This document shows, one piece after another, positions 4,731 through 62,218 of a DNA stretch of 64,000 nt (the stretch's first letter is position 1; each line of letters begins with the position of its first letter). The notes beneath the pieces are model-generated. The model was not told the DNA's origin. It was given only the letters and a program-made list of their open reading frames with translations, and ran no database searches. The position numbers were made by a program, and so were the translations under genes. This DNA is from a virus. Location: positions 1 to 64,000 of the IMG/VR virus record IMGVR_UViG_3300020579_000011, one strand, 5' to 3'.

Positions 4731-7700
4731 TGGATTGGCTCAACCGTGAGATAGAGTTTCCCAACTCCCGGTCCTCCCGACCCACAAGCAGACGCAGTAG
4801 TCGAGTAATTGATGGAAGTCGCGCCAGTGGAATGCAGGATAAAGGTACCCTGCCCGAAGTCTGTTGTGGAGATCGGAACGAGAACTCCAGTCGAGAATGT
4901 TGTACCGACGCCGTTCAGTGGTATGAACTCGGTTTTTGAGACGGTCGTATCGTCGGTATAAATGACGTTAACGAGGTAGCTTCCTGTTGTCGTGCAGGCC
5001 GTCGTGACATCAATGTGAGCGCTTATGCGATACGTTCCAACCGGACAATTTGCGCTAGAACAAAGAACAGTAGAGCCTACCGATGTTGCCGTAGACCAGG
5101 AGACGGTCGTCGAATGGTTGGCATCACCGCTAAAGCCTTGAGTATCTACCGCCGAGGTGACTGTGTTGGTGAGTATGCCTTGGGCGACCACTCCTGGACG
5201 TGTCACGGCGTAGGCCGTGACTGCGGTAGGCGCTTGATCAATGATCGAGTTCGCCGGAATAACCGTATTCGAGGTCGTGTTGGCGGCGCCTTGTTGTAAG
5301 TAAAGCATTCCGGCATTTGAGCCCAAGACCTGTAAGACGCCCGCTTTACCAGCCGCCCCACTCCCTCCGGTGCCAGGTGTACCAGGTGTAACTACGACGT
5401 TGCCACCGTTCGAATTGGCTCCTGCTCCTCCCGAGGTGCCCCCATTACCCGCTGTTAAACTGATTGCACCGCCTGCGCCACCGGAGCTTGATGTTGCTCC
5501 CGTTGCCGCGCCGCCCGTACCGGCATTTATTGAAACGGCCGAGCCGGTTCCTCCTGACCCGCTGGCGTTCGAACTAGCTCCTCCTGCTATGCCGGTGATG
5601 TTAAAGACCGTGCCAGCCGCGCCTGCGGTCGCGTTTGCCGTGGAAGCCGGGGCGTTCCCAGTGACGTTGAATTGGCCGACCGAACCAGAAGTGCCCGTAG
5701 CGCTATTCGTGCCTGGCGCGCCGAGGGTGATGGTAAAGCCGCCGCCGCTGCCCGCCGTACCCGCTCCAGACCCACCATTGCCGCCAGCACCGGTCGTAAC
5801 GCTGAATCCGCCGCCTGCGCCGCCGTTATTAGTCGCTGTACCTCCCGCAGCACCTCCTGCGCCCGTTGTGAGCGTAAAGGCTCCGCCCGCCCCACCCACA
5901 CCTGTCGTGGCACCTCCTGCTGAACCCGCGCCGGTCAAAAGGGTAATTGGAGCCCCAATGCTACCTGCGTTGCTTGCGCCCGCAGCGCCGCCCGCCGCTG
6001 CTGCGGATATGTTCAGGACGGCCGGCGCGTTCGCATTGGCCGGACCAGCCGCTCCCTGCGTGATTTGCAAAGCGATAGCCGTCGTGGTCGTCAGAGTCGT
6101 GATCTGATGTTCTACTGCTCCTGCGGTCGTCGCGGCGGTAGTTTCTCCGGTCGTCAAGCAGGTCGTCCCGCTCGTGAGCGCGCAGTTGATGGTCAGGGGA
6201 TTGTTGCCATCGGCAATCGTTGCAATGGCTCCGGTCGCGCTAACCACTTTGTTTATGGGAATCGTGGATGATGTTGTCAAAACGTTCGCGGCCAAAACTC
6301 CAGAATCCGTTAGCGTACAAGTCGTGCTGGACGTTGTGCAGCTTATAAGGTCGCCGGTTACTGGTGCAGTCGCGAAGCCAAGGATGGTGTTGCTCGCCGT
6401 TGCCGCGCTTCCCCAGGTCGTCGTGAAATTTCCGCTTGCAGGAAAAACTGCTAACGTTCCGGCCGTTCCGGATGCGCCAAGCGTTACTGCGGCTGGCAGG
6501 CTCAGGGTACAAGTCCCCGTCATTGTGATCGTGCAGGTTCCTGATGCGGTGATTTGGTTTGTAGTCCCGGCAATCGTGACCGACGTTACTCCTCCACCGC
6601 CACTAGGAGCATTGCCTATTGTTTGGACTTGCCAATTCGTACCGTCGAAAACTTCCCATACAGGAGTATTGGCTTTGATGTCTCCAGAAGCGAGCGCTGT
6701 GCCATCCCATTTCTGAACGGGGGCTGCGGAAGTCGAATTTACGTTCTCAGTGAGCGCTCCCGTATTTGCGGTCGTTGTGTAATAAATAATCGCATCACCT
6801 TTGACCGGCGTGAACGAAGGCGAAGTCGTACAGGATTGCGCCGTTCCAGAGCCAGACGAATCAGAGCATTGCAGTGGCAAAGCGATGCCATGGCCTGTGG
6901 CCGAGGCCAGTGTCTTATTAGCGCCAGCAGCTTGGACAACGGCACCGTTCGCAAAATTGGATGACGCCGTGACGATGTTGCTTGGGGCCAAGGAAAACTG
7001 TGTATAGGTTAGTGACGACCCAGAAGAACCGATGCTCGTCACCTGCGAAGTGAGCAGCCAGCTCGTTGTCGCGTTCACTGTTCCCGACTGGACAGGAATT
7101 GATCCGGTGTTGTTCACATCAGAAGGCGTGTCGTAGTCGAGCGCACGAGTGAATACGGCGGAGATCCCGGTCGTGCCGACGATAGTAGCCGTGTAGACAC
7201 CGTTCTGGCTCGCCGTTGTCTGGTCTTTGAGCAGCACGCGCTGGCCGATTGTGTTTATAGCTACTCCATCCAGCGTGAACGCGCCGGTAGCCGTGATCGT
7301 GAAAGTATCGCCGATACCTCCACCAACTTGGTTATAGGTGCCTGTTAGGTTGCTGCCGGTCGTAGCGGCGAGGACCGCCACAGCCGGATTGACTCCTGCA
7401 ACGGCGTTATTGACAGCCGTAGTAACGAAAGAATCCGTTGCCAAGTCATTCGAGCTGTCTCCGGCACTCTGCGTCGTCGCCGTTGTGCCGCTTGGCAGCG
7501 CTGGAGTGCCCGACAGATTCGCAGCCGTGCCTGTGGTGTTATTCGCCAGTGTCGCGCTAGAGGCGTCTATAATCTGGCTGCTTGAATTAGTGCCCACAAT
7601 CGTCTTCGATGCCGGGACAGCCGCGCCATTCACTTTCACGACTGAGGTAGCGCACGCTCCTGCGGAAGTCGTCGCATCGCCGGTCAAGGCTGGCATAGCG

Positions 7701-10700
7701 GCGCATGGTAGACCTGTCGCATTTGTCAGAGTCAATGTTGTCGGAGTCCCAAGGTTCGCGGTTTGGGTGATGCGTACTTCCCAAATTCCGCTTGCTCCTT
7801 GAGTCAGGGTTGCGTATTGACCATTCCCCAGCGTAAAGGACGTTGCTCCGTCCGTCGCTGAAGTGCCATTGAATACACTGAACGTGTCTGGACTCGTGCG
7901 CCCGAAAACTAAACTCCCAGCACCGTCGTCTATAACCGTTACTGCGAATCCTCCCGTGCAACCTGTGGCTGTCGATAGGGGCACAATGGGTGCGCTTGCA
8001 CCTGATTGGAAACGCAAAATATGTACGCGGTCAATGAGAGCTGTAGAACTATCGCACTGGATTGTATAGCCCGACGACGTGACGACAGCCCCGCCGTTGC
8101 CATCCTGAACGCCAGGAGACGAGAAAGCGGGGGCAGAGCCGTTTACTGCAACTAAACTTTGTCCAGTGACTTGACCGACGATGCTACCGAGGGTGGAACT
8201 TGTTGCCCAATCCGTAACTGCGTTCGCCGTGCCCGTGCCCGGACCGCTTCCGCCAGAGCAGCCGGCAGTTGTCGCACCGCCATTTGAATCCGTGCAAAGA
8301 GTTGCTGCCGTGCCGCTCACGGTGCCCGCAGTAAGGATTTTTGTATCCGTGCCCTGTTCGCCGGTGAGTGCGGTTCCGCCGTTGACCGATAAGCTTGTGT
8401 TCGCCGTAATCGTGGTTCCAGTGATGGCAGCCGGCGTGGTCCCGCCAATAGCGCCAGGGCTTGGAAAAGAGACAGTAGAGCCGCCTAGAGCTACAGCCGT
8501 ACCAGCGATATTGATTGAAGAATGAGCGAGGCCGGTGTTTGCGAGCGAATTGTTCGTAACATTGCTCAAATTTGTAACAGTGGGATTCGGGTAGGCTCCG
8601 CCGAAGTCTCCGCCTGCCGCTTCGGTTGAATACATTGCGGCATTACCGTTGAAGGATGGAACCTGTAATGTGTTCAGAACGCCAGTGGAGGTAACCCAGA
8701 CTTCTTTCACTGCGTTTAGTTCGATGTCGGTGCAATCGACGCTTATCCCCGATGGGCAGTTCGTCGTCCATGGCACGGAACTGGTAGAGGAAGGCGCTAG
8801 GACAAATCCTGTATTCGTGTTTGTCGCCGCTCCAGTGATTGACGGCCATCCGGTTGACCCGCTCGCGCTTGCCGTGATCGTCATACCGTTACTCGCCGCG
8901 CCAAAGGTGACATTTGTTCCAGCGATGAGCGGGGCACTGCCTTCGTAGTCCGTGAATGTCGCCGTGTTCGCGTAGATTGGAAAGACTTGCCAATTTAGCA
9001 AGACTGGAACTGTGGCTGTCCCATTAAAGGTATCGCCGCCCGCGAGAGCAACCGTAGCGGTCGTGCTGCCGATGGTCATTATATTTGCGAACCATCCTGT
9101 CGATGGTTGAGCAGCGGGCAGCGTGTAGGCACACGCGGAACTGCAATTCATTAAGACAAGTTTTCCATTGTCGGATGTGCTTGCGGTGTGATTCGCGGTG
9201 TAAGTGACCGTCCCTCCGCCTGCGCCACGGCAGATGTTATCTCCGCCTAAAAAATTAGAGGAATTACATCCACTGCCGAGCACTCCAATCGCTCCAGAGA
9301 AGTCTGGTAAGGTCACGGTGCGGTTGGCTGTGATCGCGGAGACGATGGATTCCACAAATCCATTGTTGAGGATGTTGAAAGAGGTCGTGTTGATGCCCGC
9401 GCTGGTGATGGACTGGCTGAGGGCTAGGTTTTGGGTTGGGGCACTGATACCACAATTAGCCGACGTATCTACATAAGTAAGTCCCGGACCCGCACCAGAA
9501 AAACTGTCGAAATTAGCACAATTATAGGAAGCATTCGTGGTAAAGGCCCCATTACGCCATATGGCATAATTAGCGGCCCCGTTGACGGGTACAGCAGGCG
9601 TAGTTATCGTTACCGTCTGGTTACCCGTAGTGGTGGTCACACAACTTTTTGGTCCAAGCGTAGTTAGGTTTCCGTTCACGTCAACAGCCGCGAGAGAATA
9701 GCAGATATTGCCTACCGGAACGCTGCCGCCGCTGCTTACCACTACCGAAGCAGCAGCGGTCGGAATGGCCATCTGGTAGCCCACCTCTCCAGTACCAAAA
9801 ACATTGAGCGTGTTGTTTCCAAAATTCGAGTCGTGGTAGGAATTAACGTTCTGTCCGCTTATCGCGTTCCCCACGGCCAACCCGACCGGCTGGCCCGTGA
9901 GATAACCGTAACCCGAGGCGGGGCCAGCAAAAGAGTCAAAGATAGATAACTTGCCACCGTAAGAACCGCCATTTGTGGTTAGGTTGGCTACCATCGCCGT
10001 GCTTGCCGTATCCAGCTCGACGTTACTGATGGTGATGTTTCCGCCCACATTTCCAGCGCCGAGATTCGCTATCGCCAAAAACGGAGGAACGTTTCCCTGA
10101 ATACGAGTGTTGCCGCTGATTGTTATATCTGTTCCCGAACCTCCCGTGAGCAGAAAGATACCCCGCCCACTCAAACTAAGATTGGTCAAAGCCGCGTTTG
10201 AACTAAGGTAGAAGACGGGTGTAGAACTTCCCGGACCCTGGTTGGCAATCAAGGCTATGTGGTCAAAATTATTACTAAAGACTCCCGCCCGTAGCATCAG
10301 CGGCATGGACATCGGGCCAGCGGTCGCGTCAAAGTTGACGTAGTTCATGCTATCGTTTGAGGCGCCGTCTTCCAGTACCGCAACCGCAGCATTTCCGGCG
10401 CTAAATTGGACGCCAGTAATTTGGTTAATCCCGTTCGAGGCATAGACGGCAGGATTAGCCCTTAAACCTTGGATAGAACCACCAACTGGGTAGCCGAAAG
10501 ATAACGAACTATTCGTCTGCGCTCCAAGCGTGCCAAAAATCTTGGTACCACCACTAACCTCCATCGTGTCATTGAGCGCAAGGTTTGAACCCGCGAGGCT
10601 AATGGCAAGCGTATACGCCGAAAGATTCAAATAAGAGTTCGTCACATACGAATTTGTACTACCAGGAAAATAAAGCAAGCTGTTGAAGCTGCAATGGCTC

Positions 10701-12073
10701 GCCGCCGTGACGATGTTGGGTGTGTTGTCGAAGAGGATGGTCGCACCCGAAACCGAGGTGCTTGCGGAGTTGGCCAGCGTAAGCGTCGTGGTGCCCGCAC
10801 CGGACACGACGGTAGTCACCAGCGGGTCGGCTTGCGCGGAGACGGGCGGCGTGCTAGGTACGAAGTACGGAAAGAGTTGCCCGCTCATCATCGTGGAACC
10901 GTAATCCTGCCAGGTGGTATCTGGCGTTAGCCCATTGACCGTGCTCTGTACCTTGCTTACACCCGCCAATGTCAGCGATCCGCTCGGCCCTGCGTAAACG
11001 TAATAGCGGTAGGCGTTGGCCTGCGAGGTCCAAGTAAGCTTATTGTCGTACCAATAGTTAAGGGTCCCGCCCGCACCCGAGACGGTTGGTGCCCCCGAGG
11101 ACACCGCGTTCCCGGTCAGATAGGTAAAATGGTTCGCGTCCGTGACCGTGACGTTGTACCACCCGCCGAAGTACAGGTTGTCTGTTCCGTTTACGTTCGG
11201 CGTCGTAATGTTAACCCACGCGCCCGTAGAGAGTCCGTGTGCAGTAGCCGTGGCCGTCACGGTCTGCCCGGAGCGCGTGAAACCGGAGATGGAAACGGTC
11301 TGGTAGCCCAACGCGGCTTGCCCGGTCGAGGTGCAAACCTGTGAGGTCGCGGCGCTTAGTCCGCCCGCCTTATCTTCCGCCAGGATGGCGTAGCAATACT
11401 GCGTCGAGCCAGCAACCGAAGCCACGTCAAAACCCGTGCCGGTCGGAGCCGAGGAAACGCTCGGCGTCACCGCAAGGCCCGTGGGCGTGGTTATGCTGTT
11501 CGCCGGTCCAGCACCGAAGACCACGACTCCATCCCCATTCTGAAAGGAGCTCGCCGAAGAGAGAGCGCAAGAAGTCGAGCTGATCGTGCAAGTAATTCCA
11601 GGAATGGCAGGAGCGACGGCCTGATTAACCGCCCGCACTCCATAGGCTCTCACATCGGTATAGGGATTCGGACCTTTGCCTTGAAAGTCTCGCGTAGTAG
11701 AGAATACTGTTCCGCTGTCTGCTTCCCCTGAAGTGACAAGTGTTCCCACTCCGTTGGTGGATTGGATGGTTCCCAAGGGACCAGCGGCCGAAGACCCACC
11801 TCCAGGACAAACGTTCGCACCTACTGAGTTCAGGCATGTCAGTTGACCTGTTCCTGAATCGCAATAAGTACGAACCTTTCCTGTGGGTGGATTTCCTGGA
11901 CTGGCTATGCACACGTAGTCCGTGATGGACTGCTGCGTGATAATATTCTGAAAACTAAATTCGTCCGTGTCGCGGTATTCGACACGTATATTCCTTGGGC
12001 CGTCGTCTTTCTTTTGTGCGAAAGCGGGGATACACGCCAGCAAAAGAAAGATGATCGCCAGTTTTGATTTCAT
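4727..12073 (-). CDS. Giant secreted tail-fibre/adhesin (2448 aa)
   Basis: Largest gene in the window. Residues 1-20 are a Sec signal peptide (MKSKLAIIFLLLACIPAFAQ). Residues about 140-760 look like a beta-helix/beta-sandwich region with Cys pairs. The middle repeats phrases common in phage fibres, for example GGDFGGAYPNPTVTNLSN. Residues about 1960-2240 are an extreme Gly/Ala/Thr tract (GAGGAGGAFTLTTGAGG and similar). A compact C-terminal domain (about 2260-2448) with paired Cys follows. Composition is mainly Thr, Ser, Gly, Ala and Asn. It sits just downstream of a small 225-aa fibre-associated gene and the glycosyltransferase cassette, so it is the obvious candidate substrate for glycosylation, though that is inference. 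Confidence 0.83.
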   Translation of the reverse strand: MKSKLAIIFLLLACIPAFAQKKDDGPRNIRVEYRDTDEFSFQNIITQQSITDYVCIASPGNPPTGKVRTYCDSGTGQLTCLNSVGANVCPGGGSSAAGPLGTIQSTNGVGTLVTSGEADSGTVFSTTRDFQGKGPNPYTDVRAYGVRAVNQAVAPAIPGITCTISSTSCALSSASSFQNGDGVVVFGAGPANSITTPTGLAVTPSVSSAPTGTGFDVASVAGSTQYCYAILAEDKAGGLSAATSQVCTSTGQAALGYQTVSISGFTRSGQTVTATATAHGLSTGAWVNITTPNVNGTDNLYFGGWYNVTVTDANHFTYLTGNAVSSGAPTVSGAGGTLNYWYDNKLTWTSQANAYRYYVYAGPSGSLTLAGVSKVQSTVNGLTPDTTWQDYGSTMMSGQLFPYFVPSTPPVSAQADPLVTTVVSGAGTTTLTLANSASTSVSGATILFDNTPNIVTAASHCSFNSLLYFPGSTNSYVTNSYLNLSAYTLAISLAGSNLALNDTMEVSGGTKIFGTLGAQTNSSLSFGYPVGGSIQGLRANPAVYASNGINQITGVQFSAGNAAVAVLEDGASNDSMNYVNFDATAGPMSMPLMLRAGVFSNNFDHIALIANQGPGSSTPVFYLSSNAALTNLSLSGRGIFLLTGGSGTDITISGNTRIQGNVPPFLAIANLGAGNVGGNITISNVELDTASTAMVANLTTNGGSYGGKLSIFDSFAGPASGYGYLTGQPVGLAVGNAISGQNVNSYHDSNFGNNTLNVFGTGEVGYQMAIPTAAASVVVSSGGSVPVGNICYSLAAVDVNGNLTTLGPKSCVTTTTGNQTVTITTPAVPVNGAANYAIWRNGAFTTNASYNCANFDSFSGAGPGLTYVDTSANCGISAPTQNLALSQSITSAGINTTSFNILNNGFVESIVSAITANRTVTLPDFSGAIGVLGSGCNSSNFLGGDNICRGAGGGTVTYTANHTASTSDNGKLVLMNCSSACAYTLPAAQPSTGWFANIMTIGSTTATVALAGGDTFNGTATVPVLLNWQVFPIYANTATFTDYEGSAPLIAGTNVTFGAASNGMTITASASGSTGWPSITGAATNTNTGFVLAPSSTSSVPWTTNCPSGISVDCTDIELNAVKEVWVTSTGVLNTLQVPSFNGNAAMYSTEAAGGDFGGAYPNPTVTNLSNVTNNSLANTGLAHSSINIAGTAVALGGSTVSFPSPGAIGGTTPAAITGTTITANTSLSVNGGTALTGEQGTDTKILTAGTVSGTAATLCTDSNGGATTAGCSGGSGPGTGTANAVTDWATSSTLGSIVGQVTGQSLVAVNGSAPAFSSPGVQDGNGGAVVTSSGYTIQCDSSTALIDRVHILRFQSGASAPIVPLSTATGCTGGFAVTVIDDGAGSLVFGRTSPDTFSVFNGTSATDGATSFTLGNGQYATLTQGASGIWEVRITQTANLGTPTTLTLTNATGLPCAAMPALTGDATTSAGACATSVVKVNGAAVPASKTIVGTNSSSQIIDASSATLANNTTGTAANLSGTPALPSGTTATTQSAGDSSNDLATDSFVTTAVNNAVAGVNPAVAVLAATTGSNLTGTYNQVGGGIGDTFTITATGAFTLDGVAINTIGQRVLLKDQTTASQNGVYTATIVGTTGISAVFTRALDYDTPSDVNNTGSIPVQSGTVNATTSWLLTSQVTSIGSSGSSLTYTQFSLAPSNIVTASSNFANGAVVQAAGANKTLASATGHGIALPLQCSDSSGSGTAQSCTTSPSFTPVKGDAIIYYTTTANTGALTENVNSTSAAPVQKWDGTALASGDIKANTPVWEVFDGTNWQVQTIGNAPSGGGGVTSVTIAGTTNQITASGTCTITMTGTCTLSLPAAVTLGASGTAGTLAVFPASGNFTTTWGSAATASNTILGFATAPVTGDLISCTTSSTTCTLTDSGVLAANVLTTSSTIPINKVVSATGAIATIADGNNPLTINCALTSGTTCLTTGETTAATTAGAVEHQITTLTTTTAIALQITQGAAGPANANAPAVLNISAAAAGGAAGASNAGSIGAPITLLTGAGSAGGATTGVGGAGGAFTLTTGAGGAAGGTATNNGGAGGGFSVTTGAGGNGGSGAGTAGSGGGFTITLGAPGTNSATGTSGSVGQFNVTGNAPASTANATAGAAGTVFNITGIAGGASSNASGSGGTGSAVSINAGTGGAATGATSSSGGAGGAISLTAGNGGTSGGAGANSNGGNVVVTPGTPGTGGSGAAGKAGVLQVLGSNAGMLYLQQGAANTTSNTVIPANSIIDQAPTAVTAYAVTRPGVVAQGILTNTVTSAVDTQGFSGDANHSTTVSWSTATSVGSTVLCSSANCPVGTYRISAHIDVTTACTTTGSYLVNVIYTDDTTVSKTEFIPLNGVGTTFSTGVLVPISTTDFGQGTFILHSTGATSINYSTTASACGSGGPGVGKLYLTVEPIQ

Positions 12074-18018: not shown

Positions 18019-18147
18019 CTACGGCTGAAAATTCTCGATGGTATCGTAAAGCCACTTGAGTCCGAGCGCGAGTATCGCCAAGACAATGCCGAACACAAGA
18101 AGCAAATTCCAATACCTACGCAGTATGGTTACGCACGAGGGTGTCAT
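18019..18147 (-). CDS. Single-pass small membrane protein (42 aa)
   Basis: ATG at 18147 overlaps the TGA of the large glycosyltransferase (ATGA). The peptide has a basic N-terminus (RRYW) then one hydrophobic helix (LLLVFGIVLAILALGL) and a short polar tail, the usual look of a one-pass inner-membrane protein with the C-terminus outside. Role unknown; a membrane anchor for the glycosylation machinery or a small phage membrane effector are both possible. Confidence 0.55.
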   Translation of the reverse strand: MTPSCVTILRRYWNLLLVFGIVLAILALGLKWLYDTIENFQP

Positions 18148-20027
18148 TTGAACACCGTATCCAAGACCGATTGCACTCGATGTGTGTACGTCCCGCACTC
18201 GCGGATATAATCCATGCACTCTCGCACGATGGCACGGCGCTCCACCGGCATTTGCAGCCAGCGGTCAATCTGCTCGCCAAGGTCTTCAAGATTCTGCGCT
18301 TGGTAAGTAGCACACGGCATCGTCAGACCCTCAAATCGGGGATAGAGCAGGAACCCGCCACGCCCGCAGGTCTCGTAGAGCCGGTCAGAGGCGTAGTGAG
18401 GTACTCCTGAAAAAATATTGTCTCCCACGCAAACTTTCATGGAAGCGTACACGTCATTGAGCTGCGATTCGCGGACACCCTGAAATGTCTTGAATCGCGC
18501 TCCGTACTTTGTCCTCAAAAACTCAATCAGCTCCATGCGAAAAGGATATTCTCTGTGGTAGCTTTCGATAGCTCCGACAAAACCGACATCGCAGAACAAA
18601 TCTCCGCGTGGGAACCCGTAATGCACGCCGCGCTCGACAACTGCAGGTTGTAAATAATGATGATTCACTCCGCGTTCCAGAAATTTCTCCTGGTTTCCAC
18701 CATCGGCGGTAAAAAGATGTGAACATTTCCAAAATGGCGTCTTGCCAATGCGCTCCTCGCGCTCCGGGATGCCCCAATAGCGGTCCAAGTGGTACCCGAC
18801 TGAAGGGATGCCTCTTTCTTTGAGGCATTCCATGAATCGAAACATTTCTTCGTCGGGAGCTACTTGCCAGCCGTGCGTGTGTACAAACATAAAAAGGTCT
18901 GCATCACAAACAGCGCCTTGCAATTCCTGAATCGTGCTCTTGTCTTCTGGGACGCGAATTACTTCATGGCCGAGATGCTCAAGTGACCAAGCCAAGTCCG
19001 ATTCTGTACAGAAGCTGTGGGAAAAGTTGCCGAGAAACGCGATTCTCTTTTGTCCAACAAACTCGCGGTGAACTCTTGTCGGCCCAGTTGCGACGATCTC
19101 AGGTCGCAGTCCGTCAAGATGGCTCTTCAAAATGTCCTTGAATAGTTCGTTGTCGTTTTCCCATTCGACGCGCGGCGGTGTCTCCCACGCAATCGGCAGG
19201 AGTTCCATTTCCAGCATCTTTTTAGCCGCTACATGAATGTCGATAGCTGAAACTTCATATATCGTCGCGAGGCCGAATGAGGATTTGCCTGTCGGTCGAA
19301 CCCAAGCCGATACACACGCAATCTCATTCATCGGCGGGCCGTCCACGGTAAGGATCGCCGCATTGACGGACAGAGATTCGTGCAACGCCGCTCCATACCC
19401 TTCCGTACCGCTTGGGTGCAAGTGGAACGCATGAGAGTTTTGCAGCCGCTTCAACTCTTCTTCACTGACACGCTCCAATACAGTTACATTGGCAGGCAGT
19501 TCCACGCCTTTTAGTTTCTGGCTGATGATGGTTAGTTCCGCTCCGATGCCCTCGCCATTCTGCTTCCATCGAAACGCATCCGTGATCGCGGTCGTATTTC
19601 GCAAAGATGAGTTACCGCCAACGTGAAGAAAACGCCGTTCTCGCGCAATTGTTGGGTCGTATTGGTCACGACTCAGGAAGCCAAGGCAAAACGTCATGCC
19701 GGGAAATATTCCTTCGAGGATTCTCTGTGCTTCGTTAGTTTTCGCAAAGACTTTGACGAAGTTACGCTTCACTACCGGAATCAGGTCTTGCGTAAACCAT
19801 TCTGGATTCACCCATAGCCAGCGAATCGGCGCTACGGAAAAGAGGTGCCGCGAGACAGTCTCAAGAGAAATAGATAGTTCGCAAACGGGGAAGTTTTCCG
19901 GCAGAGGTGCGTCATATTGCAGGCCGTGTACTTCGTGGCCGAGTTCTTCAAGATAGGCGCGAAGTAGTTGGTATTCGCACTGGAGACCGAGGCCCCCATT
20001 GATGTTCGAACAAATCGCTATGCGCAT
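18144..20027 (-). CDS. Two-domain glycosyltransferase: GT4-like plus CgeB-like
   Basis: Residues about 1-290 form a GT-B/GT4-like unit: MRIAICSNINGGLGLQCEY at the start and HPSGTEGYGAALHESLS near residue 205, which is the E-x7-E nucleotide-sugar site. Residues about 320-627 are a second unit resembling CgeB/spore-maturation glycosyltransferases, with DVGFVGAIESYHREYPFR, ASMKVCVGDNIFSG and YASDRLYETCGRGGFLLYPR. Joining both in one chain suggests two successive transfers to the same acceptor. First enzyme of the cassette in transcription order after the small RHH gene. Confidence 0.8.
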   Translation of the reverse strand: MRIAICSNINGGLGLQCEYQLLRAYLEELGHEVHGLQYDAPLPENFPVCELSISLETVSRHLFSVAPIRWLWVNPEWFTQDLIPVVKRNFVKVFAKTNEAQRILEGIFPGMTFCLGFLSRDQYDPTIARERRFLHVGGNSSLRNTTAITDAFRWKQNGEGIGAELTIISQKLKGVELPANVTVLERVSEEELKRLQNSHAFHLHPSGTEGYGAALHESLSVNAAILTVDGPPMNEIACVSAWVRPTGKSSFGLATIYEVSAIDIHVAAKKMLEMELLPIAWETPPRVEWENDNELFKDILKSHLDGLRPEIVATGPTRVHREFVGQKRIAFLGNFSHSFCTESDLAWSLEHLGHEVIRVPEDKSTIQELQGAVCDADLFMFVHTHGWQVAPDEEMFRFMECLKERGIPSVGYHLDRYWGIPEREERIGKTPFWKCSHLFTADGGNQEKFLERGVNHHYLQPAVVERGVHYGFPRGDLFCDVGFVGAIESYHREYPFRMELIEFLRTKYGARFKTFQGVRESQLNDVYASMKVCVGDNIFSGVPHYASDRLYETCGRGGFLLYPRFEGLTMPCATYQAQNLEDLGEQIDRWLQMPVERRAIVRECMDYIRECGTYTHRVQSVLDTVFK

Positions 20028-33500: not shown

Positions 33501-34214
33501 CTAGTTGATAAGCCGTGGCCTTGATGCTACTTGAAATCCTTGTTGGAAATTCGGTCTGCGCCCTCGTACTGTCAGACGATTCCAGACTTTTTGAATCTGT
33601 TCCATTTTCTTGTCTAGCAGAGAAGTACGGCAACCCTGCAAACTGAACGAAACTGGATTGATAAATGCGGGCATCGCCTCTGCCATTTTTTCCGCGACCT
33701 CTTCGGCTTCACGGCTCTTCTGTTCATTCTGCTCGAACTGTCTGGCTGCTTCCTGCTCGCTTGTCGAGAGCCGCTGAAAGGCTTGCATCATGGGAATAAT
33801 GCGGTCGATCAAGAAGTGATTGAGTTCCAGATGTTCTACAACCATCTTCCCGTTCACGAGTTCACGGCTCATAAACGGCTGAACGGGTTCGTAGCGTCCT
33901 TTGTAGGGATATTCTCCCGTCGTATAGGTCCGGGAAACTTGATCCCAGGTATTGCGGTAGTAGCTTGTCGGCGAGCCGTAGAACGATGCAGGTTTCCAGC
34001 GCATCAGCGTCCAGCATTGCATCTCGTGATTCTGGCAGCGGTCTCGGTATTCCCGGCGTTCATTGCCGTACTTGTCGCGCCAGATATTCCCCATCCGAAT
34101 GAAGGATGTGCGACCCCAAGCGAACTTGAAGATGTTCTCGCCGTATGGATTCACTCCGAAGACACGGAGCCTATCTTGAAATTCCCTTGGGCAGATGCGG
34201 GCTTCTTTGGTCAT
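33501..34214 (-). CDS. Hypothetical protein of the head-tail module (237 aa)
   Basis: Start taken at ATG 34214, which overlaps the stop of the GroES-like gene (ATGA); an upstream in-frame ATG at 34241 would overlap it further. N-terminal region is aromatic and basic (FKFAWGRTSFIRMGNIWRD; RWKPASFYGSPTSYYRNTWD), the middle is a charged coiled coil (SEQEAARQFEQNEQKSREAE), and the C-terminus is basic. Not recognised. Confidence 0.6.
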   Translation of the reverse strand: MTKEARICPREFQDRLRVFGVNPYGENIFKFAWGRTSFIRMGNIWRDKYGNERREYRDRCQNHEMQCWTLMRWKPASFYGSPTSYYRNTWDQVSRTYTTGEYPYKGRYEPVQPFMSRELVNGKMVVEHLELNHFLIDRIIPMMQAFQRLSTSEQEAARQFEQNEQKSREAEEVAEKMAEAMPAFINPVSFSLQGCRTSLLDKKMEQIQKVWNRLTVRGRRPNFQQGFQVASRPRLIN

Positions 34215-34564
34215 TCGATGACTTCGGCGCGAGCGTAACATTCCTCGTCGCGCACCATGAGTAAATCCTTTTCTCCGGTCAACTCTTCGAGGTCTTCAAA
34301 GGTCATCGAGAAAGCCGTGATGATAACAAGGTCTCCGGGTTTCAAGTCACTCGCAACAAACTTTCCATTGCGAACTACCTCGGCGGCTTCGACAACTTCA
34401 GCTTGGTAACTCTTTGCTTGCGAGCGGTCCACGATGAGTCCGGCATCAGTCTTAATTTCCTCAAGGCTGAGTTTTCTGACAATCACCCAGCCGTGCCGAG
34501 GATGAACCGCATACTTCACTTTTGCCGCTACTGTCTCACCCATTTCAACATCTATTCCTTTCAT
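34211..34564 (-). CDS. Phage GroES-like co-chaperonin (117 aa)
   Basis: After a 20-residue extension the chain follows the Cpn10 plan: HPRHGWVIVRKLSLEEIKTD, the mobile-loop position with DAGLIVDRSQAKS, AEVVEAAEVVRNGK, LKPGDLVIITAF and a final DLLMVRDEECYARAEVIE. GroES caps the GroEL folding chamber as a heptamer; the IVL-type GroEL-binding tripeptide appears here as LIV. It is the next gene after the major capsid gene, which suggests it helps fold the capsid protein with host GroEL, as gp31 does in T4. The length is a little above the 95-100 of bacterial GroES. Confidence 0.78.
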   Translation of the reverse strand: MKGIDVEMGETVAAKVKYAVHPRHGWVIVRKLSLEEIKTDAGLIVDRSQAKSYQAEVVEAAEVVRNGKFVASDLKPGDLVIITAFSMTFEDLEELTGEKDLLMVRDEECYARAEVIE

Positions 34565-34634: not shown

Positions 34635-36610
34635 TTAACTGGTGACGGAAGGAACCGCAGCGTTTGAAATGTAGCACGCCGCCTTCGAGTTGCTTTGGAA
34701 AACGTTGAGGAACGTGTTGTAATAAAAGATACTACTGGTCAAGTATGTACCTTGGTTAACGAAGTCCGGAATCGGCATGGTGGTGACGCCATCTCCGAAT
34801 TCGTAAAGGGACGGCTCGACGGTTTCGATGATGCCCCAAGTTTCCGGGCATACGGCATCGAGGCGTCCTTGTTTTGCGGTGTACACGACATTCAGCGTGC
34901 GTCCGCCGTAGGTGATCGGCATCTTTTTCTTCGTCATGTCCAGAGCTTTGTCCCCCGGAGGGTTGAAGTTCTGCATCAAGACGTTGGTGTAAAGTTGCGT
35001 CACGGCGAGTTGCTGGTCTGGCCCGCAGATCCATTCGAAATCGGCTACTGCCTCGTTTTCTGAACCAAGACCGCGGCCAATGAGAATTTCTGCTTTGAAG
35101 CCGTCTGTCGTGTTGATGGCAAAGTTGCCCTTGTTGATGTTCGGGACCGAGAGCTGGCCTGGATACGTTGCACGGTTGAGTCCCATGATCGTACCGGTCG
35201 TCGCGTTCGTCTGCCAAGCATAGAGTCCAAGCACGCCCGAATTAAGCGCACCTGTCCCGTTCTGGATGACGACGAAATCTCCTGTCGAAGTGCTGGTCGG
35301 CAATGCGGTCGAGAAGTAGACCGTATCGTTGGCACCGTCCACGTAGGAGACTACCGCTACTGCCGGTGTGGTTCTCGCGCCGCCACCTTCCGCAGCGAAC
35401 AACTGGACCGATTGCTGCTCTTGGAACTGATTGGCTTGCCCGCCAAGACCAACAATCGATGACGGGTTTGCGCCGCCAAGCGTGTTGTTGTTGATCGTCG
35501 CCGTGGTTGGAATTTGCACGATCGAGCCTGCGCCATCGCTCAAGAACTGAGCGTCAACGCCACGCATAAAGGAATCGAAAGAATTTTTCAATTCTTCAGC
35601 CCGCAGAGAGATGAGGCTTCTCTTTGGACCCTCCGTGGCCTTCCTTGCAAGGTACGTTATTTCGCCAGATGCTTTGTTACTACGCCTGTTTCTTGATTAG
35701 CGTAGGCCCCGGCATTTCTGCGGGGCTCTCTTTGTCGCCAAAGAGTTCGGACTGTATCTTCACTTCCTCCACAAGTTCAAGGAAGGCTTCGCGTGCGGTC
35801 TCTACGGTGCCCGTTCGGTTAAGGCGGTTCAATTGTTTCACCCTAATTGCGATAGCCTTATCCATTTCGGAAATTCTGACAAACCGCCTGTCACCACGGC
35901 GTGCCATATATTTAATCATCAGCCTCGCTTGTTCTTTTTTGCCACTCAGCGAGTTGAAGATAATCTCAAGGAATCTCTTTTTGTTGCTGCAACGCCCTTT
36001 AATATCCACATGCCAGAAATGCACATGCGTTGAGCGCGTAACATATTGGATTCCCCAAGAATCCAGAATGGATTCGACTCGTGAAATTATCAGAGGATTT
36101 GAATTACAAACTGCGGATACACATGCTCGCCACCCTCCTGTAGTGGAGAAGTTAATAGAGCCTTCTCCATCCAAGATTGCTGCCATGTATCCGATGTCAT
36201 TCTCTGAAAATTCCATGACGGTTCCCTCGGTATTGTCTCTAGTTTACCAAGCTAGAGAGTTTCACCGATACAGCGAAGTTTAGGCTGGGCGCGATGTGCT
36301 CATACCCAGCGAACAAGCCCACTGGAGACAAATCCCCCGAGAGCCACTTTGATCCGGTCCCGCGAAGCAAGCTATCACCGTCACCGGTTTGCGTGGTGAT
36401 GGCTGCACCTGACTGGACGCGGAACGGAATGCGAAACGCCGGTCGGGTTGTGCCGCCAGCCGCAGTAATATTTGCGGTCGGGTATGTCTTTGCTCCTTTT
36501 TTGAAGAAGTTGTACATCGTGCGGCTTTTGTAGACGAGATCGGGAATGCCCTTACTGAACGCTTCCAGTTCGACCGCTTCGACTGCTGCTTCTGCTAGTG
36601 GTGAAGCCAT
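34635..36610 (-). CDS. Major capsid protein, gene split by a group I intron
   Basis: Proposed join, in coding order, 36610-36254 (exon 1, 119 codons) and 35654-34635 (exon 2), giving about 458 residues. Exon 1 alone would stop three codons into the intron; exon 2 has no good start of its own, and its open frame continues upstream of the TTG at 35591 with coding-like YLARKATEGPKRSLISLRAE. The junction reads KLS-YLARKA. Features: helical N-arm (EAFSKGIPDLVYKS), a long E-loop-like region (FRIPFRVQSGAAITTQTGDG), spine helix (RAEELKNSFDSFMRGVDAQF), and a beta-rich end. Position between scaffold and GroES, and size, fit an HK97-fold major capsid protein. The exact splice sites are inferred. Confidence 0.72.
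35655..36253 (-). other. Group I self-splicing intron in the capsid gene
   Basis: A 599-nt insertion splits the capsid frame. In RNA sense: exon 1 ends CUCUCU (36254) and UCUCUAG pairs with CUAGAGA a few bases later (P1). GGUA just before that strand can pair with UACC, the first bases of exon 2 (P10). The intron ends in G (35655). Near the 3' end are an R-like element GUAGAGACCG (35805-35796), hairpin CUUCCU/AGGAAG (P8; 35785-35763), the S-like element AAGAUACAGUCC (35760-35749), then perfect hairpins CUCUUU/AAAGAG, GCCCCG/CGGGGC and CUACGC/GCGUAG (P9 region). Weak points: the splice-site U pairs with A rather than the usual G, and P7 has a C-A mismatch. Confidence 0.7.
35680..36216 (-). CDS. 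Intron-encoded LAGLIDADG homing endonuclease (178 aa)
   Basis: One LAGLIDADG helix is visible as IGYMAAILDGEGSI at residues 8-21, where Asp/Glu supply metal ligands; a second copy is not evident, so it may act as a homodimer. Basic C-terminal half (MIKYMARRGDRRFVRISE; RVKQLNRLNRTG). It lies wholly inside the intron, 37 nt after the 5' splice site, and its last 45 codons overlap the intron core helices P7-P9. Such enzymes cut intron-less alleles so that repair copies the intron in. Expected target: the intron-less capsid sequence round the exon junction. Confidence 0.85.
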   Translation of the reverse strand: MEFSENDIGYMAAILDGEGSINFSTTGGWRACVSAVCNSNPLIISRVESILDSWGIQYVTRSTHVHFWHVDIKGRCSNKKRFLEIIFNSLSGKKEQARLMIKYMARRGDRRFVRISEMDKAIAIRVKQLNRLNRTGTVETAREAFLELVEEVKIQSELFGDKESPAEMPGPTLIKKQA

Positions 36611-43360: not shown

Positions 43361-43472
43361 TCTCGCGTTTCACCTTGCGCGTGGCCTTAGGATAATTGGC
43401 CTGCATGAACATCTTCGCGCCAACTCGCTTGAGAGCGCGGACTTGCTGGCGGGTTAGGAGTTGCTCGCTCAT
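43299..43472 (-). CDS. Small basic protein after TerL (57 aa)
   Basis: ATG at 43472 overlaps the TerL TGA (ATGA). The peptide is basic and helical (LTRQQVRALKRVGAKMFMQA; ATRKVKREIASELAKRKVA), the kind of DNA-binding small protein often found by terminase genes. Function unknown. Confidence 0.5.
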   Translation of the reverse strand: MSEQLLTRQQVRALKRVGAKMFMQANYPKATRKVKREIASELAKRKVAPVPVHKNPD

Positions 43473-45061
43473 TTACTCGGTTGGCGAAGTTTTGCAGCCC
43501 ATGTAGGTAGTGATGGCGGCTTTGGTCCTTGCCGTTCTTTGCGTTGCTGCTCGTTATACACTTTGTAGCCTGCCATGAACTTTGACATGGGTTCCTTGAT
43601 GGCGTCAAGACGTGCTCTCAATTTCACAGATTCTGGTACATCTGCCTCATCCAAAAGTGCGCCTGCTATGGCGTAGCGTGCTGAGTCGCCCATGTCGTCA
43701 GCTAGGCTCATACCCTTTGGCTTGACCACATCTTCGATTGAGGTAGCCGTGCCGTCGCCACGGACGAGAAGCGGAATGGATTCAATCAGCACAGGGCAAT
43801 CGGTCGTGATAAACCAATCGTCCGTATCCAGTAAGTCGTACATCTTCTGCCAGCCGGCGACTCGATCTGTATTCGAGCGCGTTGGACGCGGCAAACCGGC
43901 AGCGGCAAGAATATCGCCAACTTCATCGGCAATCGTGAAGTCACCCTGCGTCTTTATGAAACGCTCCCATGAGAAGTGAATCTGTTCAATGTTCATCGCC
44001 AACTTTTGTGCGCGCAGTCCGCCAACCATGGCAATCAGCGCCTCAGCCTGTTCCTTTGGTGTGTTCTTGTGGAGGTAGAGTTCGCCGATGGTTACGTTGA
44101 CCGTGCGAAGAGTTGGCTGACCGTGTTCGTTGAGCCTTGCTGAATCTTTGTAAAGCGCCTTCGTGAAAACCGTGATGCAGGCATAGTGACCGAATCCGTA
44201 GTCCCATCCAATCCAAGTCGGCTGCCATTCTTGGAAAATTAGTTCTTCTTTGAATTTGATGTGCCTCGAAGCGTCCCAATTCTCGAAGTATTGGCCGGAG
44301 ACCGTATCTAGTCGTCCTTCAAAGATGATCCCACGTTTCGGTGAGGCTTTGAGAGTCTGGATATATTCGCGGTTGTTGGCGTAGGTAGGATTATCGAGAA
44401 CTGTCGAGTGGAAATATTCGTAATCGGCAGCGTTGTACATTTCCGGGTCCATGCCGATGAACGGCTTCTTGTCCACCCAAAGTTTCTTGATCCAGCCCCA
44501 GCCTATGCCCATGGGATTCGTTACGCCAACCATGCACGGACGCGAGCCAGGAATCGGACAGCGATTGCGGCCACACAGGGCGTCCCAAACAGCAAAACTG
44601 AACTCGCCTAACTCTTCAAAACCGATGAATACGTATTCTGTCGAGAGGAATTTGCCTACATCTGCGTCACGCTCGCAGGCCGAAAGATAAAGTTTCGATT
44701 GTGCTCCTGTCTTTGGATCTGGATGGTGGTAAAGAATATGGTCCGTATGGTTATAGGTGTCGTAGGCTTCCCGTGGAATGACAGCGAGGAGTTTATCAAC
44801 TACTGTGCGCTTCAGGTCAGGGATCGTCTTGCGAAGGATGAGACTGTTTGAGCCGGGATACTCTAGCCCATGGATGAATGCTTCCCAGAGCATAGCCAAA
44901 CTTTTGCCGCTACCATAGCCACCGACCTCAAGTCGATAGCGTGCGCCTGATTTGTGGAAATCTTCTTGAGGAGCTGTCTCGCGGCCAGGTTGCTTGGGCC
45001 ATGGTCTGTAGTGGTCAGAGATGCGGAACTGTGGTGGGCCGGTTTGAGCTGCTGCTGGCAC
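43469..45061 (-). CDS. terL: Terminase large subunit (530 aa)
   Basis: Packaging motor ATPase plus nuclease. Walker A is VGGYGSGKSLAML near residue 47; Walker B with catalytic Glu is EYVFIGFEELGEFS near residue 140. The nuclease domain starts at PTWIGWDYGFGHYACITVF near residue 290, where the first Asp is a metal ligand, and a later acidic site is LADDMGDSARYAIAGALLDE near 475. It pumps DNA into the procapsid through the portal and cuts the concatemer. GTG start. Follows the RHH gene and TerS, as is usual. Confidence 0.9.
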   Translation of the reverse strand: MPAAAQTGPPQFRISDHYRPWPKQPGRETAPQEDFHKSGARYRLEVGGYGSGKSLAMLWEAFIHGLEYPGSNSLILRKTIPDLKRTVVDKLLAVIPREAYDTYNHTDHILYHHPDPKTGAQSKLYLSACERDADVGKFLSTEYVFIGFEELGEFSFAVWDALCGRNRCPIPGSRPCMVGVTNPMGIGWGWIKKLWVDKKPFIGMDPEMYNAADYEYFHSTVLDNPTYANNREYIQTLKASPKRGIIFEGRLDTVSGQYFENWDASRHIKFKEELIFQEWQPTWIGWDYGFGHYACITVFTKALYKDSARLNEHGQPTLRTVNVTIGELYLHKNTPKEQAEALIAMVGGLRAQKLAMNIEQIHFSWERFIKTQGDFTIADEVGDILAAAGLPRPTRSNTDRVAGWQKMYDLLDTDDWFITTDCPVLIESIPLLVRGDGTATSIEDVVKPKGMSLADDMGDSARYAIAGALLDEADVPESVKLRARLDAIKEPMSKFMAGYKVYNEQQRKERQGPKPPSLPTWAAKLRQPSK

Positions 45062-59862: not shown

Positions 59863-61253
59863 TTACGGACTACAACATTTTTCTAGAAACAAAATCGCAA
59901 CTTGGCACTCTCTCAGGATTCAAACCGCACAAGGTTCCTGATTCCCTATTCGACTTTCAGAAATCGCTTGTTGAGTGGTCCTTGATGAAAGGTAAAGCGG
60001 CCATCTTTGCGGATTGCGGACTCGGGAAAACACCGATGCAGTTGACTTGGGCCGATAACATTGTGCGAAAAGAAAACCGGTCTGTCCTTGTTCTCACTCC
60101 ATTGGCTGTCTCTGCGCAAACTGTTCGTGAGGGAGACAAGTTTCAGATCGAATGTAGGCAGTCGCGCGATGGGAAATTGCGCAAGGGCATCGTGGTCACG
60201 AACTATGAGCAGTTACACCACTTTGACCCAAATGATTTTGTGGGTTGTGTCTGCGACGAATCCAGCATCCTTAAATCCTACGATGGCACACGCCGCGGCG
60301 AAATCACAGAGTTCATGCGCAAGATGCCATACCGCCTACTTTGCACCGCGACAGCCGCGCCGAATGATTACATCGAACTTGGAACATCCAGCGAGGCCCT
60401 CGGAGAACTCGGGCATGTGGACATGCTCCAACGTTTTTTCAAGAACGACCAGAACACGGTCAAACCGATGGTCTATCGAAACAAAGGACAGAACTTCAAA
60501 GCCAACTATGAGCGGGCTAAATGGCGTTTCAAGGGCCATGCGGAGCTACCTTTCTGGCGTTGGCTCTGTTCTTGGGCGCGCGCGATTAGAAAGCCTTCGG
60601 ATCTTGGATTTGAGGACGGCGCATTTGTTCTTCCGCCGCTCATCGAATCGGAGCATTTGGTTGTCGCTGAGAAGTTAGCGCCTGGAATGCTTTTTGCCCT
60701 CCCTGCTATCGGCCTCAAGGAACAGCGCGAAGAACGGCGCCGCACATTAAAGGAACGCTGTGAGAAATTGGCGGAACTATCAAACACTGGAAAGCAAAGT
60801 CTAATCTGGTGTCACCTGAACGATGAAGGCGACCTACTTGAGAAGCTCATCCCAAACTCGGTCCAGATTAGTGGCAGTGATTCAGACGAAAAGAAAGAGG
60901 AAGCTTTTCTTGCCTTCGCGGACGGCAAACTAGAGAACCTCATCACTAAACCAAAGATCGGTGCATGGGGTATGAACTTCCAAAGATGCTCGCATGTTCT
61001 TTCGTTCCCCTCACATTCTTTCGAGCAATATTACCAGGGCATCCGGCGTTGCTGGCGATTCGGGCAGACCAAACCAGTGCGCTTCGATTTGGTTTTCACG
61101 GAAGGAGAAAAAGACGTGCTTGTGAATCTACGGAGAAAGACGCAGGCCTGCGAGCGCATGTTCGCTAGTCTAGTGGCTGAGATGAATAACGCGCTCCATT
61201 TGTCAAGAGGCGACGAAAGAGCCGCGGAAGTGGTGGTCCCGAAATGGCTATGA
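59859..61253 (+). CDS. SNF2-type DEAD/DEAH helicase (464 aa)
   Basis: Start at ATG 59859 overlapping the previous TGA; a GTG at 59850 is possible. Motif I is FADCGLGKTPMQLTWA near residue 49, motif II VCDESSIL near 130, motif III CTATAAPND near 160, motif V GAWGMNFQRC near 365 and motif VI YYQGIRRCWRFGQTKPV near 388 (QxxGRxxRxGQ-like). All major ATPase motifs are present, so it is probably active. It overlaps a DNA methyltransferase gene by 10 bases; the pair is seen in many phages and may act together on DNA. Confidence 0.85.
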   Translation: MITDYNIFLETKSQLGTLSGFKPHKVPDSLFDFQKSLVEWSLMKGKAAIFADCGLGKTPMQLTWADNIVRKENRSVLVLTPLAVSAQTVREGDKFQIECRQSRDGKLRKGIVVTNYEQLHHFDPNDFVGCVCDESSILKSYDGTRRGEITEFMRKMPYRLLCTATAAPNDYIELGTSSEALGELGHVDMLQRFFKNDQNTVKPMVYRNKGQNFKANYERAKWRFKGHAELPFWRWLCSWARAIRKPSDLGFEDGAFVLPPLIESEHLVVAEKLAPGMLFALPAIGLKEQREERRRTLKERCEKLAELSNTGKQSLIWCHLNDEGDLLEKLIPNSVQISGSDSDEKKEEAFLAFADGKLENLITKPKIGAWGMNFQRCSHVLSFPSHSFEQYYQGIRRCWRFGQTKPVRFDLVFTEGEKDVLVNLRRKTQACERMFASLVAEMNNALHLSRGDERAAEVVVPKWL

Positions 61254-62218
61254 TTCCGCAAGAGATCGACAAAAAGTACGCCATCTATCAGGGAGACTGC
61301 ATCGAGGTTATGGCTGGACTGCCAGAGGCCAGCGTGCATCTGTCTGTATACTCTCCGCCATTCGGAGGTCTGTATCACTATTCTTCGAGCGATCGAGACT
61401 TGTCCAACGCCAAAGATTACGGACAGTTCTTTGAGCACTATGCTTTTGTGGTCCGTGAGATTTTCCGGCTTACCTTGCCTGGGCGCATGACTGCTGTGCA
61501 TTGCATGGATGTGCCTTCTGGAAATTCTGGAACGGACCATCTGATTGACTTCCCGGGTGACATTATCCGCCTGCATGAAAAAGAAGGATTTAGGTACATA
61601 GCGCGTTATTCCATCTGGAAAGAACCTCTCGCTGTCCGCAATCGCACGATGGCAAAGAACCTCGCGCACAAAACAATCGTTGAGGACTCCTCACGGTGCA
61701 GCGTAGCTTCGGCAGATTATCTTCTAGTGTTCCGCAAGAAAGGAAAAAATACCGTCGCCATAAAACATCTGAACGGTCTTACGGAATATGCCGGCGAGCG
61801 AAAGATGCCAGCCGAACTCCTGAAATATAAAGGCTGGACAGGAAACCAGATCGAGAATCGTTACTCTCATTGGATTTGGAGACAGTATGCCTCTGCATTT
61901 TGGGATGATATTCGACTTGGCCGCGTGCTCCCGTTCAAAAATGCGCGTGATGAAGAGGACGAGAAGCATGTTCATCCTTTGCAATTGGATGTGATCGAAC
62001 GCTGCCTTGTGCTCTGGTCAAATCCCGGTGAAGTCATTCTCACGCCATTCATGGGAGTAGGCTCCGAGGTCTACGCCGCAGTCATGAACGGACGAAAGGG
62101 ACTCGGCATGGAATTAAAGAAAAGCTATTACAACCAAGCGCGAAAGAACATCGAGGCTGCTGTAAAGGGTTGGCAGGACCAAACTAATCAAGGTTCGCTA
62201 ATCGAAGTGTCCGCTTGA
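61244..62218 (+). CDS. Site-specific DNA methyltransferase (324 aa)
   Basis: Catalytic motif IV is SVYSPPFGGLYHYSSSD near residue 31 (SPPF in place of DPPY, typical of N4-cytosine or some N6-adenine enzymes). SAM-binding motif I is at the end: VILTPFMGVGSEVYAAVMNG near residue 262, followed by GLGMELKKSYYNQA. The order IV then I marks the beta class. No partner restriction enzyme is nearby, so it likely protects phage DNA from host cleavage or marks it for replication. Confidence 0.85.
   Translation: MAMIPQEIDKKYAIYQGDCIEVMAGLPEASVHLSVYSPPFGGLYHYSSSDRDLSNAKDYGQFFEHYAFVVREIFRLTLPGRMTAVHCMDVPSGNSGTDHLIDFPGDIIRLHEKEGFRYIARYSIWKEPLAVRNRTMAKNLAHKTIVEDSSRCSVASADYLLVFRKKGKNTVAIKHLNGLTEYAGERKMPAELLKYKGWTGNQIENRYSHWIWRQYASAFWDDIRLGRVLPFKNARDEEDEKHVHPLQLDVIERCLVLWSNPGEVILTPFMGVGSEVYAAVMNGRKGLGMELKKSYYNQARKNIEAAVKGWQDQTNQGSLIEVSA

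Follow-up and report, generated by a model that had tools for sequence, protein, structure and literature searches.

What interrupts the capsid-like gene on the minus strand (36610..34635) of this virus, and can the interruption be removed from the RNA and move between genomes? The window, that is, the whole stretch of DNA analysed, comprises positions 1-64,000 of IMG/VR record IMGVR_UViG_3300020579_000011. Our answer, to which we assign a probability of about 0.93, is that a probable major capsid gene is split by a complete group I intron containing an intact LAGLIDADG homing endonuclease gene (HEG). An earlier note on this DNA was partly supported: it was right in kind, having recognized a group I intron with a LAGLIDADG HEG, most probably in the major capsid gene, and an overlap between RNA structure and coding sequence.

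The splice edges were located by alignment to 25 IMG/VR homologues. They lie at 36304/36303 (exon 1 ending ...TTCGCTGGGT) and 35666/35665 (exon 2 beginning GCGAAATAACG...). All 24 IMG/VR relatives that have no insertion at this place read FAG-(C/T/N)-E(I/V)TYLAR across the junction (FSG in L025). In the window, exon 1 ...TTC GCT GGG T (36304) joined to exon 2 GC GAA ATA ACG (35665) gives FAG-C-EITYLAR, and removal of the intron restores the intron-less form of the gene, GLFAG-C-EITYLAR. The spliced protein has 445 amino acids, with no internal stops and no indels relative to the intron-less relatives. Because the homologues fix the junction to the base, the intron extends from 36303 to 35666, is 638 nt long and ends in G. 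The gene is thus divided as follows:

36304..36610, minus strand: exon 1 of the capsid-like gene, 307 nt, ending ...TTCGCTGGGU; homologous up to 36304 to intron-less relatives
35666..36303, minus strand: group I intron, 638 nt, ending in G; supported by homologue alignment, an independent covariance model and helix conservation with double changes
34635..35665, minus strand: exon 2 of the capsid-like gene, 1031 nt, starting GCGAAATAACGTACC; from homologue alignment

The host gene is likely to be the major capsid gene. This assignment, already made in the earlier note, is supported by gene order and by weak PHROG hits. As regards an HK97-type major capsid protein, PHROG 'major head protein' was matched by 4 and by 2 of the 16 members, the best E value being 0.0034. 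The terminase large subunit gene (Terminase_3) is at 43469..45061 with the capsid-like gene downstream, and between the two are a long portal-like ORF and a scaffold-like ORF, both putative, as family searches gave no confirmation. The structure model of the capsid protein was unusable (pLDDT 36), a PDB sequence search with the protein gave zero matches, and no relative was found among 50,697 sequenced phage records. The locus presents a well-bounded mobile intron in an essential virion gene of phages for which these records offer no relatives of that gene. Among other genes of the window, a GroES-like co-chaperonin gene (Cpn10, E 5e-7) lies directly downstream of the capsid-like gene (34211-34564, minus strand). 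A 2448-aa ORF (4727-12073, minus strand), a glycosyltransferase-like gene (18144-20027, minus strand) and an N6/N4 DNA methylase gene (61244-62218, plus strand) were also seen.

The P3-P8 and P4-P6 core of a group I ribozyme is present in the insert together with the J4/5 and J8/7 motifs, and double changes were found in P3, P5, P7, P8 and P9.1. The core presumably resembles that of IC3 introns. Its elements are:

36284..36310, minus strand: P1, exon GCUGGGU (36310..36304) with IGS GCCCAGC (36290..36284), 7 bp, U.G at the splice site
35665..35662 and 36294..36291, minus strand: P10, exon 2 GCGA with UCGC, just 5' of the guide
36273..36278 and 35792..35787, minus strand: P3, 5' strand CUUCGC with GCGAAG; U-A to C-G double change in L002
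36220..36268, minus strand: P4 (UCGGU/ACCGA), J4/5 (GAAA/CAAU), P5 (UCUCUAG 36258..36252 with CUAGAGA 36242..36236) and P6 5' strand
35806..35815, minus strand: P6a 3' strand and P6 3' strand; ACGG pairs with CCGU (36221..36218), P6 3' is CC
35796..35802, minus strand: P7 5' strand with bulge, GAGACCG, pairing with CAGUCC (35754..35749); one C.A mismatch, in this copy only
35763..35785, minus strand: P8, CUUCC/GGAAG
35749..35761, minus strand: J8/7 and P7 3' strand, GAAGAUACAGUCC; sole match in the window at one mismatch or fewer
35728..35745, minus strand: P9 hairpin, CUCUUUG-GCGA-CAAAGAG
35706..35726, minus strand: P9.1 hairpin, GCCCCG/CGGGGC, with family-conserved loop CAGAAAUG; double changes in 6/6 pairs
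35680..35705, minus strand: P9.2 hairpin, CUACGC/GCGUAG, holding the HEG stop UAG; UACGCUG/CAGCGUA in L017

P1 with its U.G pair, P10 and the terminal G are present only at the corrected junction, where exon 1 ends in the U that pairs with G in P1, and the intron ends in ...CAUCUG. P1 is identical in L017 and has another sequence of the same form in L002 (ACACACU/GGUGUGU); P10 is GUCUA/UAGAC in L002 and only 3 bp long in L017. The P4/J4-5/P5 motif (UCGGU-GAAA...CAAU-ACCGA) was also weakly marked by Rfam. P6a brackets the body of the HEG, with CCGU/ACGG in the window, CCAAA/UUUGG in L017, CUGG/CCAG in L002 and CCGC/GCGG in L029. The S-like element of the earlier note (35761..35749), its P8 and its three P9-type hairpins are all in place. 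The hairpin that it had called P1 (UCUCUAG...CUAGAGA) turned out to be P5, stacked on P4 (UCGGU...ACCGA), and its P10 was likewise not confirmed.

In an alignment of 14 introns, standard pairs occupied 92.9% of the P3-P9.1 pair cells as against 31-48% with slid partners. Double-changed cells numbered 65 compared with a shuffled mean of 20, and none of 500 shuffles reached the observed covariation score. A family-specific covariance model was built from 8 other introns, leaving out those of the window, L017 and L002. Its two hits in the window, at 77.3 bits (E 2.2e-22) and 28.3 bits (E 2.6e-7), covered the two halves of the intron, and it also detected L002 and L017; there was no other match anywhere in the 64-kb window and none among 16 intron-less capsid loci. 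The Infernal search with Rfam Intron_gpI that the earlier note had proposed found nothing in the whole window at the gathering score of 50 bits, which is the threshold of one generic model and not a class-defining feature; sub-threshold pieces scored 22.4 and 10.8 bits. The match stayed below the threshold because the ORF splits the core. Several sister introns of the same family were above gathering. Infernal with the generic Rfam model thus misses ORF-split introns of this sort, and annotation pipelines may consequently report false 'split' capsid genes.

These data allow two other accounts of the interruption to be judged. The earlier note had placed the intron at 36253..35655 (599 nt), taking the P5 hairpin for P1 and obtaining a capsid protein of 458 aa that was said to read smoothly across the join. 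The interrupted frame and the insert with its intact LAGLIDADG ORF were confirmed, and so were an exon 1 ending in U and an insert ending in G, which hold also at the corrected edges. P5 does form a clean hairpin, and the join leaves the frame open, but the homologue alignment refuted these boundaries: the 5' end falls 50 nt inside the intron and the 3' end 11 nt inside exon 2. Residues 105-119 of the 458-aa join (15 residues) face 2 residues in the homologues, leaving 13 spurious ones found in no homologue. Moreover, the exon-2 codons GAA ATA ACG (E-I-T) would count as intron, P1 would have no U.G and the P4-P5 core motif would fall into the exon. This version is almost certainly wrong; the homologues place the splice elsewhere, an outcome that the earlier note had named as a refutation and that applies to the boundaries, and the same homologues prove the intron itself. 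We consider it extremely improbable that there is no splicing at all and that a free-standing HEG has split the gene into halves made as two separate proteins. It is true that the frame of exon 1 meets a stop codon within the insert and that a TTG start is available inside exon 2 (35591). However, the first 25 codons of exon 2, upstream of any start codon, are conserved as protein, and the insert contains a complete conserved group I core whose P1 and P10 fit the exons exactly.

In P7 the guanosine-binding G-C pair and the adjacent bulge are kept, and three pairs along there is a C.A mismatch where all 13 other introns of the 14-intron alignment have U-A. An A+.C pair can mimic G.U. The mismatch may be tolerated in this form; alternatively, splicing may be weakened by it, or a protein may compensate for it. 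That the copy is decaying, with a damaged HEG or ribozyme and poor splicing, seems unlikely. The mismatch is unique among the 14 introns and silent in the HEG (Thr ACC, ACT in L017), as decay would allow, but the HEG ORF and its LAGLIDADG motif are intact, every other helix of the window copy is fully paired, and a capsid gene left unspliced should be lethal. It is very unlikely, though conceivable, that the LAGLIDADG protein doubles as a maturase and that the C.A pair makes the ribozyme depend on its own endonuclease; if true, this would tie capsid production to HEG expression.

The reading frame in the intron and the signals around it are:

35680..36216, minus strand: ORF (178 aa) for a LAGLIDADG homing endonuclease with one motif, IGYMAAILDGEGSI; shares codons 134-178 with the ribozyme
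36225..36228, minus strand: Shine-Dalgarno-like GAGG of the HEG, putative in function, within conserved P4/P6 core sequence
36239..36241, minus strand: UAG, the first stop in frame for translation continuing past exon 1 on unspliced RNA; part of the P5 3' strand, with the HEG AUG 22 nt downstream

The protein contains the LAGLIDADG helix motif with the acidic catalytic residue (YMAAILDGEGSI). Its structure model (pLDDT 71, from a two-sequence alignment) has the order alpha-beta-beta-alpha-beta-beta-alpha, with very low confidence and a disordered-like appearance for residues 160-178. The best PDB matches of the model in Foldseek were I-CreI, I-MsoI and I-DmoI (probability 1.00, E 3e-3 to 6e-3). 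In sequence searches, Pfam LAGLIDADG_3 (PF14528) reached 13.5 bits against a cut-off of 22.5, and a PDB sequence search gave zero matches. PHROG family phrog_5046, labelled 'HNH endonuclease', matched residues 4-129 (E 2e-7); given the LAGLIDADG fold predicted by the model, this label is probably wrong. A search for homologues of the HEG in viral contigs, GTDB genomes and phage records found only that of L017. I-CreI, a chloroplast intron enzyme, shares the single-motif LAGLIDADG fold as the best structural match; it differs in sequence (~18% identity), and the window HEG has a C-terminal tail encoded by ribozyme sequence. The HEG product, a single-motif, I-CreI-like enzyme, would most likely act as a homodimer. 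The inverted repeat TTCGC-TGGGT-GCGAA at the homing site was looked at as a dimer target; it has an odd spacer, and we make no claim for it.

The HEG begins in the P6a loop, immediately behind the P6a 5' strand, and P6a-3', P6-3', P7, P3', P8, J8/7, P9, P9.1 and P9.2 all fall within its final 45 codons. The stop codon sits inside P9.2 (UAG in the window, UAA in L017), which is the last P9 hairpin, where the earlier note had put it; the overlap from P6a-3' to P9.2 is larger than had been noted. A quarter of the HEG reading frame therefore doubles as the catalytic half of the ribozyme, which ties the evolution of the protein to that of the RNA. Between the window and L017 the amino-acid identity of the HEG products is 84% within the overlap and 55% in the preceding part (p 6e-4). 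Four-fold sites had changed at 9/20 positions in the overlap versus 18/30 (p 0.39), so that synonymous constraint in this pair was not significant. The simplest explanation would be a protein tail dictated by the core sequence.

The L017 locus (IMG/VR 3300041955_000607) bears on mobility. It has the same intron at the same site as the window, and the two HEGs share 59% identity. The capsid gene of L017 has 90% identity to that of the intron-less L016 and 72% to that of the window past the first 60 nt of exon 2, yet from 15 nt upstream to 36 nt downstream of the junction the pattern reverses, and L017 is closer to the window. Close to the junction, 13 informative sites tell window and L016 apart; L017 agrees with the window at 9 of them and with L016 at 4, compared with 50 and 300 elsewhere (Fisher p 1.9e-5). 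Since the bounds of this footprint were set after the sequence had been seen, a scan is a fairer test than the Fisher p, and in it the junction stretch ranked top of 1280 windows. Exon edges that match the window and not the sister lineage are, as far as the sequences tell, the co-conversion trace expected of homing. The footprint links two uncultivated lineages.

A P7/P3' DNA pattern led to 24 viral loci. P3, P4, P5, P6, P6a, P7, P8 and P9 were common to all of those compared, and P9.1, P9.2 and GUAACA before the 3' site were present in nearly all of them. L002 has a second intron of the family (2100-2755) about 31 codons into the same capsid gene, at a different site. Its HNH-like ORF lies between P3' and P7-3' (P8 region) instead of in P6a, which indicates that HEGs and cores have been recombined.

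Other loci yielded side observations. A capsid-type gene on the minus strand of L042 (IMGVR_UViG_3300049781_000089, 7903-5668) contains about five group I introns of the same family, and one on the minus strand of L041 (IMGVR_UViG_3300037358_000003, 9045-5838) contains about four; in both the introns crowd into 2-3 kb. Several introns per capsid gene have a precedent in crAss-like Zeta phages (PMC7886860). The same ribozyme family was found in virion genes of unrelated phages (L029, L031, L034, L037, L043 and L045), the genes being those for major head (phrog_1357, phrog_2263) and major tail (phrog_4574) proteins. The family may prefer late structural genes, and a systematic count would be worthwhile. 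In L030 (739-1419) a LAGLIDADG-like ORF (YLAAMLDGEGSV) lies directly upstream of an intron core of the family. The idea that sister introns of the L034 type stand at stop codons between genes was dropped: splicing after ...ATGGGT yields a continuous major tail protein.

The analysis establishes that the intron is present, where it begins and ends, its RNA core, the fold of its HEG and a homing footprint that joins two phage lineages. We infer self-splicing in cells, DNA cleavage, dimerisation and a competition between translation and splicing. The intron, inserted after the first base of the Cys codon in GLFAG-C-EITYLAR, would fold in the pre-mRNA into a P1-P10 ribozyme and excise itself, restoring the 445-aa protein. 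On unspliced RNA, ribosomes leaving exon 1 would stop at the UAG in P5 (36241..36239) and might re-initiate at the HEG AUG 22 nt downstream. Because translation of the HEG would then pass through the core helices P7, P3', P8 and P9, it should compete with splicing; the two processes would use one RNA and should be mutually exclusive, like those of T4 td, for which such competition is reported (PMC2988022). The endonuclease would cut intron-less capsid alleles of co-infecting relatives, and recombination would then copy the intron in, with short co-conversion of the exon edges.

Several known systems resemble this intron in part. The intron of T4 td with I-TevI (PMC2988022) is also a phage group I intron whose HEG lies mostly in a non-essential loop, enters the structured core with its 3' end and can disturb splicing when translated. 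It differs in that the HEG is of the GIY-YIG type and the host gene encodes thymidylate synthase; the overlap in the window spans P6a-3' to P9.2. Introns in phage capsid genes are described in PMC3706429 and PMC7886860. The major capsid gene of mycobacteriophage LittleE (PMC3706429) is likewise interrupted by a group I intron and its putative HEG, and splicing was demonstrated by RT-PCR; there the HEG is HNH and on the opposite strand, and the phages and the capsid family are others. The same article cites a capsid intron of lactococcal phage Tuc2009. In the uncultivated crAss-like Delta/Zeta phages (PMC7886860), group I introns occur in MCP genes, several per gene, and an intron-encoded LAGLIDADG domain appears in the legend to Fig. 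3, in the transcription gene block. These phages belong to another group, and an overlap of HEG and core was not found described in the consulted part of the article. LAGLIDADG HEGs in phage introns are described in PMC11878797. In the Bastillevirinae studied there, nuclease genes overlap conserved group I elements, and a single LAGLIDADG example occurs there, in DNA polymerase; both the phage clade and the host gene are different from ours. HEG ORFs reaching into the ribozyme core are described in PMC2988022, PMC3984707 and PMC11878797. Capsid introns, LAGLIDADG HEGs in phages and overlaps of HEG and core thus all have precedents, and the overlap in the present intron is large.
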